Source: Bradyrhizobium sp. ISRA430 (GTDB lineage: Bacteria; Pseudomonadota; Alphaproteobacteria; Rhizobiales; Xanthobacteraceae). From it: DNA of 64,000 bases. The DNA lies in assembly GCF_029909975.1 (NCBI RefSeq), contig NZ_CP094516.1:8500907-8564906 (forward strand), given 5' to 3'. Shown here piece by piece: positions 55,436 to 64,000 of the stretch. Under the pieces are notes generated by a model. That model was not told where the DNA came from and did not search any database. It saw nothing but the letters and a program-made list of their open reading frames with translations. How positions within the stretch are numbered: the stretch's first letter is position 1; each line of letters begins with the position of its first letter. Both the position numbers and the translations under genes were made by a program.

Positions 55436-57319
55436 ATGGGTTTGAGTTCAGCCCTCGCCAGTGCGATGAGCGGCCTGCGTGCCAACCAGGCCGCGCTCTC
55501 GATCGTCTCCTCGAACGTCGCAAACTCGCAGACGCCGGGTTACGTCGTCCAGACGCCGAACCAGATCGAGGTCACCACCGGCGACTTCGGCTCGACGGCG
55601 ATGACGACCGGCGTCAGCCGGGAGCTCGACACCTACGTGCTGAACCAGCTCCGCACCGAGACCGGCGGCAGCGGCTACGCCGACCAGATGGCCAACATTC
55701 TGAAGCAGCTTCAGAATGTCTACGGCACGCCCGGCAATGACGGAACGCTCGAAACTGCGCTGAACAATTTCACCTCGGCGCTGCAGGCGCTGTCGACAAG
55801 CGCAGGTTCCTCGTCGGCTCAGACGGTCGCTCTCGGTGCGGCACAGACGCTGGCACAGCAGCTCAACGTCACGACCAAGGGTATCCAGTCGCTGCGCTCC
55901 AACGTCGAGCAGGATCTCGGCACCTCGGCGCAGCAGGCGAACGCGGCGATGCAGAAGATCGCCGACATCAACACCAAGCTGCAAGGCCTGTCGGCGAACG
56001 ATCCGTCCGCCGCGACGTTGATGGATCAGCGCGACCAGGCCATCAATACGCTGTCGAAATATGTCGACGTCCGCGTCGTCACCGACGGTTCGAACCAGGC
56101 CAACATCTTCACCAACACCGGCATCCAGCTCGTCGGCGCCGGGCTCGCCTCGCAATTCTCCTTCGCGTCGGCCGGCGCGCTCGGGGCGACCTCGCTCTAC
56201 AATACCGATCCGGCCAAGTCCGGCGTCGGTGCGTTCAACATCAGGCTGCCGAACGGCTCGCAGGTCGACGTCGTCGCCAACAACGTGGTCTCCTCGGGCC
56301 AGATCGCGGCCGATCTGAAGCTGCGCGACCAGACCCTGGTGCAGGCGCAGAACCAGATCGACCAGCTCGCTGCGACGATGGCGAGCGCGCTGTCCGACAA
56401 GACCACGGCCGGCAGCACGGTTTCCGGCCCGCCGGCGGGCTTCGACGTCGACCTCGCCGGTGCGCAGCCCGGCAACACCGTCAACATCACCTACACGGAC
56501 ACGACGACCAACACCCAGCGCCAGATCACGCTGGTCAACGTCACCGATCCGGCGGCGCTGCCACTCCAGAACGCCACCAATGCCAACCCGATGCGGGTCG
56601 GTGTGAACTTCTCCGGCGGCATGGGCGCGATCGCCTCCGCGCTCAACACCGCGCTTGCCGGGTCACATCTGACGTTCTCCGCCGCCCCATCTCCGGCCAC
56701 CGCCACGACGCTGCGGATCACGGACGACAACACCGGCCTCGCCAAGGTCAATTCCTCGTCCAGCACCAAGACGATCTCGTCGCTGACCTCGGGCAATCCG
56801 CAATTGCCGCTGTTCACCGACGGTGGCCAGGCGCTGTATACCGGCGCGATTACGGCATCGGGCTCGCAGATGACCGGCCTTGCCGGACGCATCGCGGTGA
56901 ACACGTCGCTGGCCGCCGATCCGACCCGGCTGTCGGTCTACAGCACCTCGCCGGTGACGCCCGCAGGCGACACCACCCGCTCGGACTATCTCTATTCGCA
57001 GCTCACCACGGCGGTGTTCTCATATTCACCGCAGACCGGCCTCGGCTCGGCGAGCCAGCCTTTCACCGGCAGCGTCTCGAACTACCTCCAGCAGTTCCTC
57101 AGCGTTCAGAGCAACGCGTCGACGCAGGCGACCCAGCTCCAGCAAGGGCAGAGTGTCGTGGTGTCGACGCTCCAGGCCAAGTTCAACTCGACCTCCAGCG
57201 TCAACCTCGACTCGGAGATGTCGAACCTGATCCAGCTCCAGAACGCCTACGCCGCCAACGCCCACGTCATGTCGGTGGTGCAGAGCATGATGAACACCTT
57301 GATCCAGGCTCAAGTGTAA
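55436..57319 (+). CDS. flgK: Flagellar hook-associated protein FlgK (HAP1)
   Basis: The 627-residue protein has the HAP1 start MGLSSALASAMSGLRANQAA and LSIVSSNVANSQTPGYV, a long helix region (about 90-200) and the C-terminal motif SVNLDSEMSNLIQLQNAYAANAHVM. It links the hook to the filament. It starts 35 bases after flgE and ends 20 bases before flgL, so the three are cotranscribed. Confidence 0.95.
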   Translation: MGLSSALASAMSGLRANQAALSIVSSNVANSQTPGYVVQTPNQIEVTTGDFGSTAMTTGVSRELDTYVLNQLRTETGGSGYADQMANILKQLQNVYGTPGNDGTLETALNNFTSALQALSTSAGSSSAQTVALGAAQTLAQQLNVTTKGIQSLRSNVEQDLGTSAQQANAAMQKIADINTKLQGLSANDPSAATLMDQRDQAINTLSKYVDVRVVTDGSNQANIFTNTGIQLVGAGLASQFSFASAGALGATSLYNTDPAKSGVGAFNIRLPNGSQVDVVANNVVSSGQIAADLKLRDQTLVQAQNQIDQLAATMASALSDKTTAGSTVSGPPAGFDVDLAGAQPGNTVNITYTDTTTNTQRQITLVNVTDPAALPLQNATNANPMRVGVNFSGGMGAIASALNTALAGSHLTFSAAPSPATATTLRITDDNTGLAKVNSSSSTKTISSLTSGNPQLPLFTDGGQALYTGAITASGSQMTGLAGRIAVNTSLAADPTRLSVYSTSPVTPAGDTTRSDYLYSQLTTAVFSYSPQTGLGSASQPFTGSVSNYLQQFLSVQSNASTQATQLQQGQSVVVSTLQAKFNSTSSVNLDSEMSNLIQLQNAYAANAHVMSVVQSMMNTLIQAQV

Positions 57320-57339
57320 CCAGTACAGGGCTCTGAAAG

Positions 57340-59229
57340 ATGTCGATCAGCAGTATCAACTACTCCTCGTCGGTCCTCGGCGCGCAGATCCGCAACATCA
57401 ATCAGCAGCTCACCGACCTGTCGACGCAGCTCTCCACGGGCAAGCTGTCGCAGAATTACTCGGGCATGGGCACCAACGAAGGCTTTGCCATCGCCTCGCG
57501 CGCACAGCTTTCCAACATCGGCGCCTATACCGACACGATCACCAACGTCAACGTCAACATCAACCTCGCCAACACGGCGCTGCAGTCGCTGACGACGATC
57601 CGCAATACGGTGCAGACGGGCTCGGCTAACACCGCGCAGGATCTCAACGTCAACGGACAGACCATCGCGCAGAACACCGCTGCCGCCCAGTTCGGCTCGA
57701 TGGTCGGCGTGCTCAACACGCAGTCGGGCAATCGCTATCTGTTCTCCGGAACGGCCGTCAATACACAGTCGGTCGCGGACGCGGGCATCATCATCAATGG
57801 CACCACGACACAGGCGGGGCTGAAGACTGTGATGGCCGAGCGACAGGCGGCCGACCTCGGTGCCAACGGCATGGGACGGCTGGTGCAGACGCAGACTGGG
57901 AGTTCGATCACGGTGGCGGAAGATTCTGCCACCTCGCCGTTCGGCCTGAAAATCGCGGCGGTCTCCTCGACGCTGACGGGTGCAACGCTCACCGGCCCGA
58001 GCGGCTCGCCGGTGTCGTTCTCGATCAATCTTAACGGCACCAATCCGAGCAACGGCGACAAGCTGAGTGTTCAGTTCACGCTGCCGGACGGATCGACAGA
58101 GCAGGTCAACCTGACTGCGTCCAGGGCCACGCCGACGCCGACGGGTAGCTTCGCGATCGACACGAGCACTCCGCCCAACCCAGCCAACACGGTATCGAAT
58201 CTCAACGCGGCGTTGAACGACGCCATCAAGAAGCTCGCCAACACATCGTTGGTGGCGGCGTCCGCCGTCACGGCGGGCGACAATTTCTTCAACACGGCGA
58301 GTTTAGCGATCGGGACTACGGCGGTCACCAATCAGGCCGCACCGCCGGCTTCGACCACGGCCACGGGCGCGACGGCGCTGTCCGGCACCAACCCATCGGA
58401 TTCGATCTCGCCCGGCTTCACCGCCGGCAACACCATCACTGTGAACGGGACCACGCTGACATTCGTCAATTCAGGTGCGACCGGCAACCAGCTCAACGTC
58501 ACCGACAGCATCCAGACCCTGCTGAGCAAGATCGACTCGATCACGGGAACATCGAAGCCATCGACGATCCATGGCGGCGTGATCACGATCAACACCGACG
58601 ATGCTGCCAGCCTGAACATCACGAGCACGAACACGGCGGCAATGACCTCGCTTGGCTTCAGTTCGTCCCCGATCACGGCAACGCAGCCGCCGCTGCGTGT
58701 CGGCTCGTCGCCAGCAAGCTCGGCGACGACGTTGGTGAACGGCTCGGCCGACACCGTGAAATGGTACCAGGGCAATGATGGGCCCGGCTCGCCGCGCTCG
58801 ACCGCGATGGCGCGGGTCGACGATTCCATCACCGTGCAATATGGCGCGCAGGCCGATGAGGACGCGATCCGCCGGCAGCTCCAGGCGATCGCCGTGTTCG
58901 GCACGTTCTCGACCTCGCCGACCGGGCAATATTCAAGCGGGCAGGTTGCGGCGCTGAGCCTGCGCACGACCCAGGCGCTGACGCAGCAGCCCGGACAGCA
59001 GCGCATCGAGGACATCCAGACCGATATCGCGATGGCCCAGAACACGATGAAGGACGCGACCACGCGCCAGACCCAGGCCAAGGCGCAGCTCCAGAGCATT
59101 ATCGACCAGGCGGAGTCGGCCTCTCCCGACCAGGTGGCGAGCGAAATTCTGGCGCTCCAGAACGCGCTCCAGGCCTCCTACCAGACCACCGCGAACCTCG
59201 CGCAGCTCTCGCTGGTCAAGTTCCTTTAA
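57340..59229 (+). CDS. flgL: Flagellar hook-associated protein FlgL (HAP3), enlarged
   Basis: The 629-residue protein has a flagellin-like N-terminal domain (IRNINQQLTDLSTQLSTGKL, ANTALQSLTTIRNTVQ, SGNRYLFSGT) and the matching C-terminal coiled region (IDQAESASPDQVASEILALQ, TTANLAQLSLVKFL). It joins the HAP1 ring to the filament. It is about twice the usual FlgL length. The extra middle contains one copy (about 364-445) of the module also found twice in FlgE. Confidence 0.93.
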   Translation: MSISSINYSSSVLGAQIRNINQQLTDLSTQLSTGKLSQNYSGMGTNEGFAIASRAQLSNIGAYTDTITNVNVNINLANTALQSLTTIRNTVQTGSANTAQDLNVNGQTIAQNTAAAQFGSMVGVLNTQSGNRYLFSGTAVNTQSVADAGIIINGTTTQAGLKTVMAERQAADLGANGMGRLVQTQTGSSITVAEDSATSPFGLKIAAVSSTLTGATLTGPSGSPVSFSINLNGTNPSNGDKLSVQFTLPDGSTEQVNLTASRATPTPTGSFAIDTSTPPNPANTVSNLNAALNDAIKKLANTSLVAASAVTAGDNFFNTASLAIGTTAVTNQAAPPASTTATGATALSGTNPSDSISPGFTAGNTITVNGTTLTFVNSGATGNQLNVTDSIQTLLSKIDSITGTSKPSTIHGGVITINTDDAASLNITSTNTAAMTSLGFSSSPITATQPPLRVGSSPASSATTLVNGSADTVKWYQGNDGPGSPRSTAMARVDDSITVQYGAQADEDAIRRQLQAIAVFGTFSTSPTGQYSSGQVAALSLRTTQALTQQPGQQRIEDIQTDIAMAQNTMKDATTRQTQAKAQLQSIIDQAESASPDQVASEILALQNALQASYQTTANLAQLSLVKFL

Positions 59230-59235
59230 GGAGCG

Positions 59236-59250
59236 TTAAGTCGCCGTTAA
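59236..59250 (+). promoter_or_regulatory. Perfect CtrA box before the ATP-grasp/decarboxylase operon
   Basis: TTAA-GTCGCCG-TTAA, followed by CCAT, matches the full CtrA consensus. It lies just after flgL and 53 bases before the glycosyltransferase-like gene, where a promoter for the next operon is expected. Confidence 0.65.
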
Positions 59251-59303
59251 CCATGCCTGTTTACCTCTTGGTGAGGGTTTGAGGTTGGGGGCGGGGGCCG
59301 TCG

Positions 59304-60089
59304 ATGTCGGATAAGATGCAGCTCGTGGTAGCAACGCCCTGCTTCGGCGGGCAGGTCTCGAGCATCTATGCGAGTTCGATCTTCGCGCTCCAGCGTGCCG
59401 TGCACGGAATGTCAAATCTCGAGCTAAAGGTGCTGCTGCGCGATGGCGATGCGCTGATCACGCGGGCGCGGGCCAATCTGGTCGCGATGTTCCTGGACGA
59501 CCCCAATGCGACGCATTTCCTTTTCGTCGACGCTGACATCGGCTTCAAGCCGGAGCAGGTGTTCCGCCTGATCGAATGCGGGGCTGACGTCGTCGCCGGC
59601 TGCTACCCGATCAAGCGGGTCAATTGGGACAAGGCCAAGCGGGCGATCACGGCAGGCCGGACCGACGTGGCAGCAGCCTCGCTCGACTATGTCCTCGAGA
59701 TCGAGGATCCCGACCGCATCGTGGTGGTCAACGGCTTTACCCGTGTGCGTTTTGCCGGCACCGGATTCCTGATGATCCGGCGTCACGTACTGGAGGCGAT
59801 GTGCCGCCATCCGAACTACGCGGGCTTGCAATTCTTCCGCGAGCATTCGCATGACACGCTGGCGGCGAGCTGCAACCGGTTCGCGCTGTTCGAATGCATG
59901 ATCGATCCGGCGACCGGCACCTACCTTTCCGAGGACTTCGCCTTCTGCAAGCGCTGGACCGACATCGGCGGCGAGATCTGGGCCGACATCCAGAGCTCGC
60001 TCGATCATGTCGGCCCGTCTGTCTTCCACGGCGACATCGCCTCGCAATTCGCGCCGGCACCCGCGACGTCGGCGGCCGATGCGGCGTGA
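59304..60089 (+). CDS. Glycosyltransferase-like (GT-A fold) protein in the flagellar locus
   Basis: The 261-residue protein lacks membrane segments. It shows LVVATPCFGGQ at the start and HFLFVDADIGFKPEQVFRLIECGADVVAGCYPIK, a GT-A nucleotide-sugar site with a D-x-D (VDAD). Later it has FAGTGFLMIRRHV and LSEDFAFCKRWTDIGGEIWAD, with an E-D-x-x-F acid pair typical of GT2 enzymes. It could glycosylate flagellin or a small molecule. It is first in a tight operon of four genes behind a CtrA box, and all four lie between flgL and flbT. Confidence 0.75.
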   Translation: MSDKMQLVVATPCFGGQVSSIYASSIFALQRAVHGMSNLELKVLLRDGDALITRARANLVAMFLDDPNATHFLFVDADIGFKPEQVFRLIECGADVVAGCYPIKRVNWDKAKRAITAGRTDVAAASLDYVLEIEDPDRIVVVNGFTRVRFAGTGFLMIRRHVLEAMCRHPNYAGLQFFREHSHDTLAASCNRFALFECMIDPATGTYLSEDFAFCKRWTDIGGEIWADIQSSLDHVGPSVFHGDIASQFAPAPATSAADAA

Positions 60090-60099
60090 GTCTTTCGGG

Positions 60100-60399
60100 A
60101 TGAGCATCGGCGCATCCCGTTGGCAGGCAGCGGAGCGCCCCTTTGGCGGCGGCTCGCGCTATGGCCTGCGCGATGTCTTCACGCCGCTCGACACGCTGCT
60201 CGCCTACGGCGGCGGCCCGTGGCGCATGTGCGTCGGCGCGCGAAACGTGACCGATGCCTGGTCGGCGGACGAAGCGCAGGTGCAACGCAATCTGCAGCAT
60301 GTCCTCGATAGTATCGCCCACGTCCTGGTGAAGATCGAGCTGCTGCTTGGCCGCGCGGACGGCGCGGCTCTGCCGGGCAAGTCCGTGTTCGAGGTGTGA
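60100..60399 (+). CDS. Small conserved-looking protein of the operon, unknown
   Basis: The 99-residue protein has no signal or membrane helix. It contains FGGGSRYGLRDVFTPLDTLLAYGG and a helical C-terminal half (NLQHVLDSIAHVLVKIELLLG). Its codon use matches the neighbours, and it sits between the glycosyltransferase-like and ATP-grasp genes with 10- and 1-base gaps, so it is surely cotranslated. An in-frame ATG at 60079 would overlap the upstream gene and add seven residues. No family is recognised. Confidence 0.65.
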   Translation: MSIGASRWQAAERPFGGGSRYGLRDVFTPLDTLLAYGGGPWRMCVGARNVTDAWSADEAQVQRNLQHVLDSIAHVLVKIELLLGRADGAALPGKSVFEV

Positions 60400-60400
60400 A

Positions 60401-61654
60401 ATGCAGTATCCCGTTTCCGCGCCGATCGGCGTGACCGTACCAAACTATGCCGATCGCATCGGCTTTGCCCGGCTGACTCACCAGGCTTTTGACGGCGTCG
60501 ATCTGCGTCCGCTCCGCGACCGGCTGGTCGCCCGGATCGCGGAAGGCACTGCGCAGGCCGGCGAAGGACTCGATCTATCGTTGATCGCCCAGCTTCTCGG
60601 CGACAAGGAGGCGGGACTCGCAATCCAGGCCGAGGTGCTCGCCTTTCATCAATTGTTTCGCTCGCCCTGCGCGGTCACAAAGCCGGCCCTGCGCGTCCTT
60701 GCGCTGGCAGCCGCCATCGACATGGGCGGCAATACGCCGATCGAATTCCTGCTCGAAGGCTCCGACATCGAGCTGATGACGCTCTACGTCGTCAAGGGAG
60801 TCGGTTTGCCTGATCCACTGCCGGATCACGACATTGCGATTGTCATCGCATCCGATTCCGAGGAGTGCCGCGAGGCGCTTGCTGCGATCGAGCAGGCGGC
60901 GCCGCGCTGGCCGCGGCCGCTGCTCAATCATCCGGACCGCATCGCCAATCTGGATCGCGACAAGCTGCATCGGTTGCTCGCGGGTACCACCGGTCTCGAC
61001 ATTCCCGCAACCGTCAACGTCACGCGCGCGCAATTGTCGGCGCTTGCACAAGGCACGATCCGCTGCGCGGACCTCACCGGAGATCTGCATTTTCCGATGA
61101 TCGCGCGGCCGCGCGGCTCGCATGCCGGCGTGGGACTGGCGAAGCTCGACAACGCCGCATCGCTCGCGGCCTATCTCGCCGAGAGGCAGGAGCAGGAATT
61201 CTTCGTCGCGCGCTTCGTCGACTATGCGAGCGCCGACGGGCTCTATCGCAAGTATCGTCTCGCCATCGTCGACGGCAAACCCTACGCCTGCCATATGGCG
61301 ATCGCCGACCGCTGGGACATCTGGTATCTCAACGCCTACATGGCGTTCAGCGAAGAGAAGCGCTCGGAAGAGGCTGCATTCATGCGCGACTTCGACGATG
61401 CCTTCGCCGCGCGTCATCGTGGCGCGCTGGGGGAGATGTCCGGGCGCGTCGGGCTCGACTATTTCACGATCGATTGCGCCGAGAACAAAGACGGCGAGCT
61501 GCTGATCTTCGAGGCCGACAACACCGCGGTCGTGCACAACATGGATTCGCCGGACGTCTTTCCGTACAAGCAGCCGCAGATGCGCAAGATCTTCGCGGCG
61601 TTCACGGCCATGCTGGCCCGTCACGCCGGGGCCGGCGAGGGGAGTGCAACATGA
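60401..61654 (+). CDS. ATP-grasp ligase of unknown substrate
   Basis: The 417-residue protein has an all-helical N-terminal part (about 1-135). An ATP-grasp module follows (about 145-405): the pre-ATP region LLNHPDRIANLDRDKLHRLL, the phosphate-binding loop FPMIARPRGSHAGVG, KYRLAIVDGKPYACHMAI and the metal-binding strand GELLIFEADNTAVVHNMD with E371, D373 and N374. It resembles RimK and glutathione-synthetase-like enzymes that join a carboxylate to an amine using ATP. Its stop overlaps the start of the decarboxylase gene by four bases (ATGA), so the two are coupled. Ligation partners are unknown. Confidence 0.8.
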   Translation: MQYPVSAPIGVTVPNYADRIGFARLTHQAFDGVDLRPLRDRLVARIAEGTAQAGEGLDLSLIAQLLGDKEAGLAIQAEVLAFHQLFRSPCAVTKPALRVLALAAAIDMGGNTPIEFLLEGSDIELMTLYVVKGVGLPDPLPDHDIAIVIASDSEECREALAAIEQAAPRWPRPLLNHPDRIANLDRDKLHRLLAGTTGLDIPATVNVTRAQLSALAQGTIRCADLTGDLHFPMIARPRGSHAGVGLAKLDNAASLAAYLAERQEQEFFVARFVDYASADGLYRKYRLAIVDGKPYACHMAIADRWDIWYLNAYMAFSEEKRSEEAAFMRDFDDAFAARHRGALGEMSGRVGLDYFTIDCAENKDGELLIFEADNTAVVHNMDSPDVFPYKQPQMRKIFAAFTAMLARHAGAGEGSAT

Positions 61655-63150
61655 ACGAGATCATCCGCAACACGCAAGCAGCCGTCACCGGCAATTCGCT
61701 CGATCCGCAGGACTGGAACGAGTTTCGCGCGCTCGCCCATCGCATGCTGGACGAGACGATCGACGGCATTGCAAACGTCCGTGCGCGTCCGGTCTGGCGG
61801 CCGATCCCCGACGATGTCCGCGCGAAGTTCAGGGCCGACGTGCCACGTCGGGCAACTGATCTCGCCGATGTCTATCGCGAATTCTCCGAGAGCGTCGCTC
61901 CTTACGCGACTGGCAACGTCCATCCCGGCTTCATGGGTTGGGTGCATGGTGGCGGCACCGCCGTCGGCATGCTCGCCGAGATGTTGTCTGCGGGACTCAA
62001 CGCCAATCTCGGCGGGCGGGATCACATGCCGATCGAGGTCGAGCGCCAGATCGTCGATTGGATGCGCGCCCTGTTCGCTTTCCCGGAGAGCGCCAGCGGC
62101 CTCTTCGTCACGGGCACGTCGATGGCCAATCTGATGGCTATGCTGGTGGCGCGCTCGAGCGCGCTCGGCGCGCTGGCACGGCAGCATGGTATCGGCAATG
62201 ACGGCGCGCTGCTCACGGCCTACACCTCGAGGGCCGCGCATGGCTGCATCTCCAGGGCAATGGACATTGCGGGGCTCGGCACCGACGCGCTGCGTAAGAT
62301 CGACGTCGATGCCGATCATCGCATCGATGTCGCCGCACTGCGTGCGCAGATCGCGATTGATCGCGAGGTCGGGTTCAAGCCGTTTCTCGTCGTTGCCTCC
62401 GCCGGCACGGTCGACATCGGCGCGATCGACGATCTCAAGGCACTCGCGGCGCTGTGCCGCGAGGAGGGGATCTGGTTCCACGTCGATGGCGCGTTCGGCG
62501 CGCTCGCGATACTCTCACCAGAGCTCGCGCCGCTGCTGGACGGCATCGAGCTGGCGGATTCGATCGCGCTCGACTTCCACAAATGGGGGCAAGTGCCCTA
62601 TGACGCCGGCTTCTTGCTGGTGCGCGACGGTGAGCGGCATCGGCAGGCGTTCGCGCAGCCCGCGGCCTATCTGCGGCGCGAGGCGAGGGGGCTTGCGGCC
62701 GGCGCGGTCTGGCCCTGCGATCTCGGTCCGGATCTGTCGCGCGGCTTCCGCGCGCTGAAGACCTGGTTCACGCTGAAGACGTTCGGCACCGACCGGCTGG
62801 GCGCGGTGATCGCGCGAAGCTGCGCGCTGGCAAGATATCTCGAGTCGCGCGTGCTCGCGGAGCCGCGGCTGGAATTGCTCGCCCCCGTGAATCTCAACAT
62901 CGTGTGCTTCCGCTATCGCGCCGACGATGCGATCAATCGCGAGATCGTCGCCGACGTCCAGGAGTCCGGCATTGCGGCGCCGTCGAGCACGACGCTGGAC
63001 GGAAACTTCGCGATCCGAGCCGCGATCGTCAATCACCGCACGGATGAGACCGACATCGATGCGCTGGTATCGGCCGTGCTGGAGTTCGGCTCGCGGCGAT
63101 CGGGCCAAGGCCTGATCGAAACCGAGGCGCCGCCGCTCGCGGTACAGTGA
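61651..63150 (+). CDS. PLP-dependent group II amino acid decarboxylase
   Basis: The 499-residue fold-type I enzyme has the group II decarboxylase set: GNVHPGFMGWVHGGGTAVG, TGTSMANLMAM, the ring-stacking H197 (RAAHGCISRA), WFHVDGAFG with D279 and the Schiff-base K311 in ALDFHKWGQVPYD. Relatives decarboxylate aromatic amino acids, glutamate, aspartate or diaminobutyrate. Substrate cannot be read. Overlap with the ATP-grasp gene suggests that the amine it makes, or the amino acid it consumes, is a partner of that ligase. Confidence 0.87.
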   Translation: MNEIIRNTQAAVTGNSLDPQDWNEFRALAHRMLDETIDGIANVRARPVWRPIPDDVRAKFRADVPRRATDLADVYREFSESVAPYATGNVHPGFMGWVHGGGTAVGMLAEMLSAGLNANLGGRDHMPIEVERQIVDWMRALFAFPESASGLFVTGTSMANLMAMLVARSSALGALARQHGIGNDGALLTAYTSRAAHGCISRAMDIAGLGTDALRKIDVDADHRIDVAALRAQIAIDREVGFKPFLVVASAGTVDIGAIDDLKALAALCREEGIWFHVDGAFGALAILSPELAPLLDGIELADSIALDFHKWGQVPYDAGFLLVRDGERHRQAFAQPAAYLRREARGLAAGAVWPCDLGPDLSRGFRALKTWFTLKTFGTDRLGAVIARSCALARYLESRVLAEPRLELLAPVNLNIVCFRYRADDAINREIVADVQESGIAAPSSTTLDGNFAIRAAIVNHRTDETDIDALVSAVLEFGSRRSGQGLIETEAPPLAVQ

Positions 63151-63173
63151 GCTCGAGAGCGACCGAAATGAAC

Positions 63174-63198
63174 ACGCCCCGGACCTCGTCCAGGGCGT
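63174..63198. terminator. Bidirectional hairpin between the decarboxylase gene and flbT
   Basis: ACGCCC-C-GGAC and GTCC-A-GGGCGT pair around CTC. It lies between two convergent genes and can end both transcripts, although T-runs are poor. Confidence 0.55.
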
Positions 63199-63223
63199 TG
63201 ACCATTGTGATGTGGCGAAGCGC

Positions 63224-63661
63224 TTAGGCCGCGGTACTGACGTCACCTTTGACGTCATCCTTGGGATGGGTGGCCTCGTATTGATTCCGCAGCTTGTCTT
63301 CATAGGCGATCAGCTTGCGCGCATCCTTCAGCGCCCGGTAGAGATCGCCGCTCATGATGTTGTTGTTGATGCCCTCGATGATCGGCCAGGCGCTCGGCAC
63401 GGCGGTGACGATGTCGCGCACGAGATTGAAGTAGGTGCCGTGCTGGGTCTGCGGATCGGGCGAGATGTACATGAGCTGGACCGCCAGATAGACCAGCTTG
63501 GCCGGCGTGTTGGCGGTCTCCGGCGTGAGGATGTCGCGCTCGCGCAGGATCGGCACGTTGTCGCCGTCGATCAGGAGGCGGGCGCGCTGGTCGGTGTTGG
63601 TAATCACGCAATTGCCGACGATGATGCGTTCGTGCGGCCTGAGCTCGACCTTGAGGGCCAT
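63224..63661 (-). CDS. flbT: Flagellar biosynthesis repressor FlbT
   Basis: The 145-residue protein matches FlbT throughout: MALKVELRPHERIIVGNCVI, LLIDGDNVPILRERDIL, TPAKLVYLAVQLMY and MSGDLYRALKDARKLI. In Caulobacter FlbT binds the 5' leader of flagellin mRNA and promotes its decay until the hook is done; in some rhizobia it acts positively. GGAG precedes the ATG. It faces away from the flagellin gene, which begins 324 bases to the right. The usual partner flaF is not in the window. Confidence 0.95.
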   Translation of the reverse strand: MALKVELRPHERIIVGNCVITNTDQRARLLIDGDNVPILRERDILTPETANTPAKLVYLAVQLMYISPDPQTQHGTYFNLVRDIVTAVPSAWPIIEGINNNIMSGDLYRALKDARKLIAYEDKLRNQYEATHPKDDVKGDVSTAA

Positions 63662-63757
63662 GCCTGTTCTCCATCAACTCTTTAGTAACGAGCGTCGCGC
63701 GCGCCACGCGATGACGGCAGTCGGCTCTGATTTGGAGTTGATCCTTGCTGAATGTGG

Positions 63758-63772
63758 TTAACGGGTCGTAAA
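63758..63772. promoter_or_regulatory. Near-consensus CtrA box
   Basis: TTAA-CGGGTCG-TAAA differs by one base from TTAA-N7-TTAA. It lies 97 bases upstream of flbT and could influence both flbT and the divergent flagellin gene. Confidence 0.4.
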
Positions 63773-63817
63773 CGCTGACGGTCGACGCAGAAAGCGTAAT
63801 AATTTCAATGGGGATGG

Positions 63818-63848
63818 GGCCAGTTCGAGGCCGGTTCGGGCCGGCTCG
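63818..63848 (+). repeat. Three helically phased 10-bp direct repeats upstream of flagellin
   Basis: GGCCAGTTCG, GGCCGGTTCG and GGCCGGCTCG start at 63818, 63829 and 63839, so they are 11 and 10 bases apart, one helical turn each. They lie about 140 bases before the flagellin start. Confidence 0.6.
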
Positions 63849-63912
63849 GGGTACCTTTGTTAGTCCGTCTGGGACAAACCGGCGATTTCATTTCACGGAT
63901 TGTTAGAGGCTT

Positions 63913-63960
63913 GGACGCACCGTCCGCCGGTCGTTTGATCAATCTCGGTCAAACAGGACG
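63913..63960 (+). promoter_or_regulatory. Possible two-state hairpin in the flagellin leader
   Basis: CGTCC at 63921-63925 can pair with GGACG just upstream (63913-63917, three-base loop) or with GGACG at 63956-63960. In the second form an inner stem GTTTGA / TCAAAC (63933-63938 with 63949-63954) also closes. The structure ends 25 bases before the start codon. Confidence 0.45.
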
Positions 63961-63985
63961 CGTAGCTACCAGAAAGGTAACAAGT

Positions 63986-64000
63986 ATGTCCGGTATCGTC
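63986..64000 (+). CDS. Flagellin, first five codons (partial)
   Basis: ATG TCC GGT ATC GTC encodes MSGIV, the opening of Bradyrhizobium flagellins of the lateral type. AAGG at 63974-63977 is a suitable ribosome binding site. The neighbours (flgE-flgK-flgL, flbT) fit. Only five codons are visible, so the call rests mostly on context. Confidence 0.6.

Follow-up and report, generated by a model that had tools for sequence, protein, structure and literature searches.

A ligase and decarboxylase cassette at the subpolar flagellin locus of Bradyrhizobium: a candidate pathway for flagellin modification

What does a run of genes for an ATP-grasp ligase and a pyridoxal phosphate (PLP)-dependent decarboxylase do between the flagellar genes flgL and flbT? 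The question is raised by a 64,000-nucleotide stretch of Bradyrhizobium sp. ISRA430 (contig NZ_CP094516.1, positions 8,500,907 to 8,564,906; hereafter the window), which closes an assembly of one contig and 8.56 Mb. A sequence-only reading of the window had described a packed gene run at this site, with the decarboxylase beginning within the stop codon region of the ligase, and the open reading frames (ORFs) bear this out: flgE, flgK and flgL are followed by a co-directional run and then by flbT on the opposite strand. We conclude that this run, referred to below as the cassette, is real, conserved and undescribed in the papers searched, and that it is best read as a candidate flagellar pathway of the post-translational modification type with testable chemistry. 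In its full form, seen in most relatives examined, it comprises a protein here called PLP6, a group II PLP-dependent decarboxylase and an ATP-grasp ligase, with a GT-A-like protein (GT, glycosyltransferase) added in Bradyrhizobium. With a probability of roughly 0.5, the cassette makes an amine that is then amide-linked to the subpolar flagellin, through a carboxylate of the protein or of its glycan.

Conservation of the cassette between flgL and flbT

The ligase was found in 95 of 146 Bradyrhizobium genomes, as tallied from the single best hit per genome (at least 64% identity). An orthologue of the decarboxylase (at least 74% identity) was present in the same 95 and never apart from the ligase; decarboxylase hits below 60% identity (G035, G019 and the second hit of G095) were excluded as non-orthologues. 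The proposed link of the pair to a flagellar locus also held throughout the genus, decarboxylase and flbT lying within 6 kb of each other in 94 of the 95 genomes with a median gap of about 92 bp. This count includes G074, whose flbT is divergent (54%) and on the same strand; in the exception, G128, the two genes are on different contigs, each at a contig end. The best ligase copy adjoins the decarboxylase in 89 of the 95, a second copy does so in G015, G048, G132, G041 and G032, and for G137 no ligase copy is listed next to the decarboxylase. The flagellar loci of G015, G048 and G132 (L064, L065 and L115) each carry the ligase twice; one copy is 72-74% identical to that of the window and the other 64-66%, and only the latter adjoins the decarboxylase. 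FlbT was matched in 144 of the 146 genomes, and 51 are without the cassette. Fourteen of these 51 ligase-negative genomes were fetched, and in 13 of them flgL and flbT are only 72-207 bp apart; whether or not the cassette is there is therefore what distinguishes these genomes at an otherwise syntenic locus. In ligase-negative L166 a gene for a tetratricopeptide repeat (TPR) plus GT protein and flagellins lie between flgL and flbT.

The composition of the cassette was followed in the best 80 of at least 567 named loci, a sample biased toward near relatives. Ligase and complete decarboxylase were present in all 80, flbT in 77, complete PLP6 in 74 and complete GT in 72. Three of these loci (L171, L214 and L248) keep the pair without full PLP6 and full GT; since the pair persists in such loci, ligase and decarboxylase are the core of the cassette. 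The same three, together with L063, where both enzymes are present without a full GT and without PLP6, are the reason why the GT-A-like protein seems dispensable.

The window itself departs from the full form. Its 99-amino-acid ORF (60100..60399, plus strand), earlier taken for a gene of its own, is ruled out as a standalone gene: it is an in-frame deletion remnant, the N-terminal piece of the approximately 548-amino-acid PLP6 joined in frame to its last 58 amino acids. The PLP6-homologous reading starts at 60079, giving 106 amino acids. When an intact PLP6 was used as query against the strain's own genome, it returned the two remnant pieces (82% and 81% identity) and no second intact copy elsewhere, the sole other match being insignificant (E 0.34). 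By blastn, some 1.3 kb of PLP6 is gone, with a 10-bp overlap at 60205-60214. The last 58 codons gave a ratio of non-synonymous to synonymous substitution rates (dN/dS) of 0.38-0.57 versus 0.25 between two intact genes, an imprecise figure over so short a stretch. PLP6 is intact in most relatives examined, and there it tested positive for the class V aminotransferase fold. It differs from the known members of that class (alanine-glyoxylate aminotransferase, PhnW, NifS) at the sequence level: PF00266 gave no match up to E 1 in two diverse copies, and a PDB sequence search returned no meaningful match.

One possible explanation for such losses is that the cassette has no flagellar function, being a hitch-hiker or in decay in this strain. 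The deletion of PLP6 here, its incompleteness in 6 of the 80 named loci and that of the GT in 8, and the 51 genomes that have no cassette while FlbT is nearly universal (144 of 146) all point that way. Against it, when the window was compared with each of two near relatives, dN/dS was 0.06-0.12 for the GT, 0.11-0.12 for the ligase and 0.11-0.13 for the decarboxylase. These three genes are under purifying selection (0.06-0.13) and are thus more than chance ORFs. Together with the unbroken association of the two core orthologues across the 146 genomes, this makes the hitch-hiker explanation very unlikely, and ligase and decarboxylase appear to have been kept intact since PLP6 was lost.

Enzymes of the cassette and their flagellar setting

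The ligase (417 amino acids; 60401..61654, plus strand) consists of a short TPR-like N-terminal part and an ATP-grasp domain at about residues 94-415. Its predicted model tested positive for the ATP-grasp fold and has RimK, ArgX and LysX among its closest folds, ITPK kinases and RimK being tied in Z. Sequence likeness is low: the protein is only 12-18% identical to RimK, LysX and ArgX, differs from them by the additional TPR-like N-terminus, and reaches 11.5 bits with the RimK family TIGR00768, far under the cut-off of 143.4. No Pfam ATP-grasp model matched it up to E 1, and a long paralogue matched RimK only at E 0.1. A PDB search with the ligase profile returned TPR matches, the others being weak or at chance level; the N-terminal profile matches TPR proteins including O-GlcNAc transferase, the TPR-like part being one degenerate stretch only. 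We read the protein as a putative ATP-grasp carboxylate-amine ligase, which would form an amide. Elsewhere in some genus genomes there are divergent pairs of long TPR plus ATP-grasp proteins (L111, 8525-12013, and L112), 29-37% identical to the ligase and 553 and 593 amino acids long in L111.

The N-terminus could let the ligase dock on flagellin, where the partner decarboxylase would form an amine locally from an amino acid provided by PLP6; the ligase would attach this amine without an intermediary to filament carboxylates, or to an acidic sugar on the filament. We regard this as unlikely, and such flagellin amidation was not found among the listed titles and abstract starts of open-licence PMC papers on flagellin with ATP-grasp, decarboxylase or Bradyrhizobium. 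A related, glycan-free scenario has the ligase bind flagellin through this part and couple the amine to protein carboxylates in the manner of RimK or LysX/ArgX. The predicted nearness to RimK, ArgX and LysX and the TPR matches are consistent with it, as are the three of 80 named loci that hold the pair without full GT and PLP6. The single degenerate TPR-like stretch and the low RimK score speak against it, and we consider it quite unlikely.

The decarboxylase (499 amino acids; 61651..63150, plus strand) is matched over its whole length by PF00282 (221.9 bits, cut-off 27). Its HK, HVD and His motifs align with those of solved decarboxylases (4obu and others); we take the HK motif to hold the PLP lysine, and Asp and His to lie around the cofactor. 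In both respects it resembles the group II enzymes acting on tryptophan, DOPA, diaminobutyrate and cysteine sulfinate. It differs from them in falling under every equivalog cut-off: among the NCBIfam models for named decarboxylases (diaminobutyrate [DABA], Asp, Tyr, Glu, His) the best score was 180 of the 900 bits required. Naming a substrate was dropped, as all listed models are far below cut-off. Taurine, beta-alanine and ethanolamine-type compounds are candidates for the amine product.

The GT-A-like protein (261 amino acids; 59304..60089, plus strand) had no Pfam or NCBIfam match, and its PDB sequence matches were at chance level only. It matched PHROG 1574, a family of unknown function, at E 8e-30, and a glycosyltransferase PHROG weakly, at E 0.002. 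It contains DADIGF and SEDFAF, presumably glycosyltransferase motifs, and is 75-95% identical to eight copies from the genus.

To the left of the cassette lies flgL (57340..59229, plus strand), assigned from a weak Flagellin_N match, sub-threshold FlgL/flagellin models and synteny in relatives; to the right lies flbT (63224..63661, minus strand; PF07378 143 bits, NF009432 231 bits), which, like FlgK, is above curated model cut-offs. From the flgL stop to the decarboxylase start the spacings are 74, 10, 1 and -4 bp, the decarboxylase ATG overlapping the ligase TGA (ATGA). A consensus scan from the flgL stop to the decarboxylase stop gave no promoter-like site and one terminator-like stem, within the decarboxylase gene. 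Co-transcription of the cassette with flgL is plausible, since neither kind of site lies between flgL and the ligase stop. A terminator-like hairpin with an 11-bp stem (63174..63198, minus strand) stands between the convergent decarboxylase and flbT; such sites are not above chance in 57000-64000 (three versus 4.2 expected).

The check proposed in the sequence-only reading named lateral flagellar genes. The complete flagellin closest to the cassette lies across the contig join and has 746 amino acids and 73.5 kDa. According to the available text of PMC4823718, the subpolar filament of strain USDA 110 is built from the 68-kDa FliC1-4 (bll5843-bll5846) and the lateral one from the 34-kDa LafA, which rules out the lateral flagellum. 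PLP6 carries the name Bll5850, which points in the same direction if the name reflects the USDA 110 locus. From flagellin size, the USDA 110 filament data and this name together, the cassette is at the subpolar (thick) flagellin locus. Only the first five codons of a flagellin gene (63986-64000) precede the contig end, and when this end is joined to the contig start the frame soon stops; the full 746-amino-acid flagellin begins at base 244 (L071, 1-2484). Since relatives have flagellins in tandem, the assembly join has probably lost or collapsed one of the copies.

Occurrence outside the genus

Searches of 297 genomes of the order, 289 of the class and 398 of the phylum, overlapping sets that include genus members, turned up relatives of the ligase. 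Outside the genus, the count took in 27 loci whose ligase has about 400-430 amino acids. The divergent L145-L148 (open frames of 453-739 amino acids), which have no decarboxylase, were not counted, nor were weak or long-type loci such as L109-L114, L149 and L150, or G892 and G1003. A decarboxylase lies near the ligase in 17 of the 27, L141 being not judgeable at a contig end. PLP6 is present in 14, all of them with the decarboxylase, and the trio thus occurs in other orders and classes. The GT-A-like protein, which the sequence-only reading had counted in the set, was not found in any of the 27; its place in the set holds for the genus only.

That ligase and decarboxylase belong together, as first proposed from their adjacency, is borne out by their shared 95 of 146 genomes and by a natural decarboxylase-ligase fusion of 885 amino acids in L143 (a single assembly). 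A second fusion joins PLP6 to the ligase (P0260, 934 amino acids). The fusions suggest that PLP6, ligase and decarboxylase may act jointly. Two loci (L286, 8200-10562; L292, 8061-10440) have a ligase relative but no decarboxylase; its neighbour is a class V aminotransferase matched by PF00266, which looks SerC-like by eye; this aminotransferase may be an alternative partner of the ligase. In L101 (11079-12860) and L102 (7352-8992) a ligase relative stands beside a TPR plus sulfotransferase protein (PF13469, tested in L101), and no flagellar genes were detected nearby.

Flagellar neighbours were seen in four of the 27 loci: L103 (flgE/flgK/flgL/flbT), L142 (flagellin and flbT), L282, where the trio directly follows fliD and fliS (Pfam), and L108, where the ligase is alone. 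The Poisson probability of four in 27 by chance is 0.009-0.05, assuming that flagellar genes make up 3-5% of a genome. Of the 28 genomes outside the genus that carry the ligase, 27 matched Flagellin_N (26 over cut-off; the exception is 68% complete). This is compatible with a role on flagellin but weak as a test, since 245 of 299 phylum genomes match as background.

The sequence-only reading had named, as an outcome that would refute it, a pair sitting mostly away from flagellar genes. Within the genus the pair is flagellar (94 of 95), whereas outside it only 3 of the 17 loci with a decarboxylase are, so that there it does sit mostly away from them. Filament modification is kept as a candidate, but an exclusive role in the flagellum is not established. 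In an alternative scenario the product of the trio is a small molecule with an amide that stays free, as a secreted compound or a signal, and the location among flagellar genes does no more than couple expression of the trio to motility. We consider this possible, if on the unlikely side, and a serious rival, because trio operons also occur without detected flagellar neighbours: L105 and L106 by molybdenum-oxidoreductase-like genes (by eye), L279 followed by ATP-binding cassette (ABC) transporter genes, and L281, L283 and L284 beside housekeeping-looking genes (by eye). Combining ATP-grasp with PLP enzymes is, moreover, common in the biosynthesis of small peptide-like natural products. Conversely, the window's ORF run holds no exporter gene, the position between flgL and flbT is constant in the genus, and other flagellar settings recur outside it.

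Proposed chemistry and known flagellin modification systems

In the favoured pathway, PLP6 would make or reshape an amino acid, which the decarboxylase would convert into an amine. The ATP-grasp enzyme would then use ATP to activate a carboxylate and form an amide between it and the amine. Subpolar FliC would carry the product, most likely as a glycan substituent, and the GT may help to build or transfer the glycan. Amide formation, the order of reactions, flagellin as acceptor and the part of the GT are all inferred. With PLP6 deleted in ISRA430, the amino acid would have to come from elsewhere or the product would be altered.

Flagellin decoration is favoured because of the flagellar place of the cassette and of two precedents. 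The nearest is type B flagellin of Clostridioides difficile (GT1-GT3, CDR20291_0244-0247), which, in the portions available of PMC5207245 and PMC5207246, shares an ATP-grasp of the carboxylate-amine ligase kind and GTs in a flagellin glycan locus. The ATP-grasp mutant CDR20291_0245 has glycans without the sulfonated peptidylamido cap, the exact role of the protein being described as undetermined (PMC5207246), and the cap contains taurine, alanine and glycine (PMC5207245). As this is a glycan substituent, the precedent argues against direct amidation of the protein. The systems also differ. FemAB-like, ornithine cyclodeaminase-like and FdtB-like genes belong to the C. difficile system; no such matches were found among the flgL-flbT proteins, the only ones searched (Pfam, NCBIfam). 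Conversely, the term decarboxylase is absent from those portions of both C. difficile texts. Taurine, formed from cysteate by a decarboxylase of this type, is one candidate of several for the amine here.

The second precedent is the sfmABCDE cluster of Shewanella oneidensis, where, in the available text of PMC3765264, deletion of the ATP-grasp gene sfmE shifts the flagellin mass and reduces spreading. An ATP-grasp protein thus serves flagellin modification there, as proposed for the cassette; its partners differ, being NeuB, a thiamine pyrophosphate (TPP) enzyme and a methyltransferase, and that text has no decarboxylase or aminotransferase. Caulobacter has a TPR plus GT protein, the flagellin O-glycosyltransferase FlmG, whose TPR part binds flagellin (PMC7591256, in the part available). 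A protein with TPR and a weak Glyco_transf_9 match stands inside the cassettes of four relatives (L064, 8077-9696; L065, L067 and L115) and resembles FlmG by architecture alone. It is not in the window's run, and a 40% relative of it lies between flgL and the flagellins in L166.

No description of the cassette was found among the listed titles and abstract starts of open-licence PMC papers on flagellin with ATP-grasp, decarboxylase or Bradyrhizobium, and no mention of the tags bll5848-bll5852 and blr5847 was found in open-licence PMC papers. For B. diazoefficiens, a review suggests in its available part that glycosylation of the subpolar flagellum is possible, by analogy with the polar flagellum of Azospirillum (PMC8429497). 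The cassette would supply deletable genes with which to approach that idea, and the ligase does occur in records of B. diazoefficiens (P0027). Beyond the genus, it presents an uncharacterised three-enzyme module of PLP6, ATP-grasp ligase and decarboxylase, with natural fusions, that occurs well outside Bradyrhizobium.

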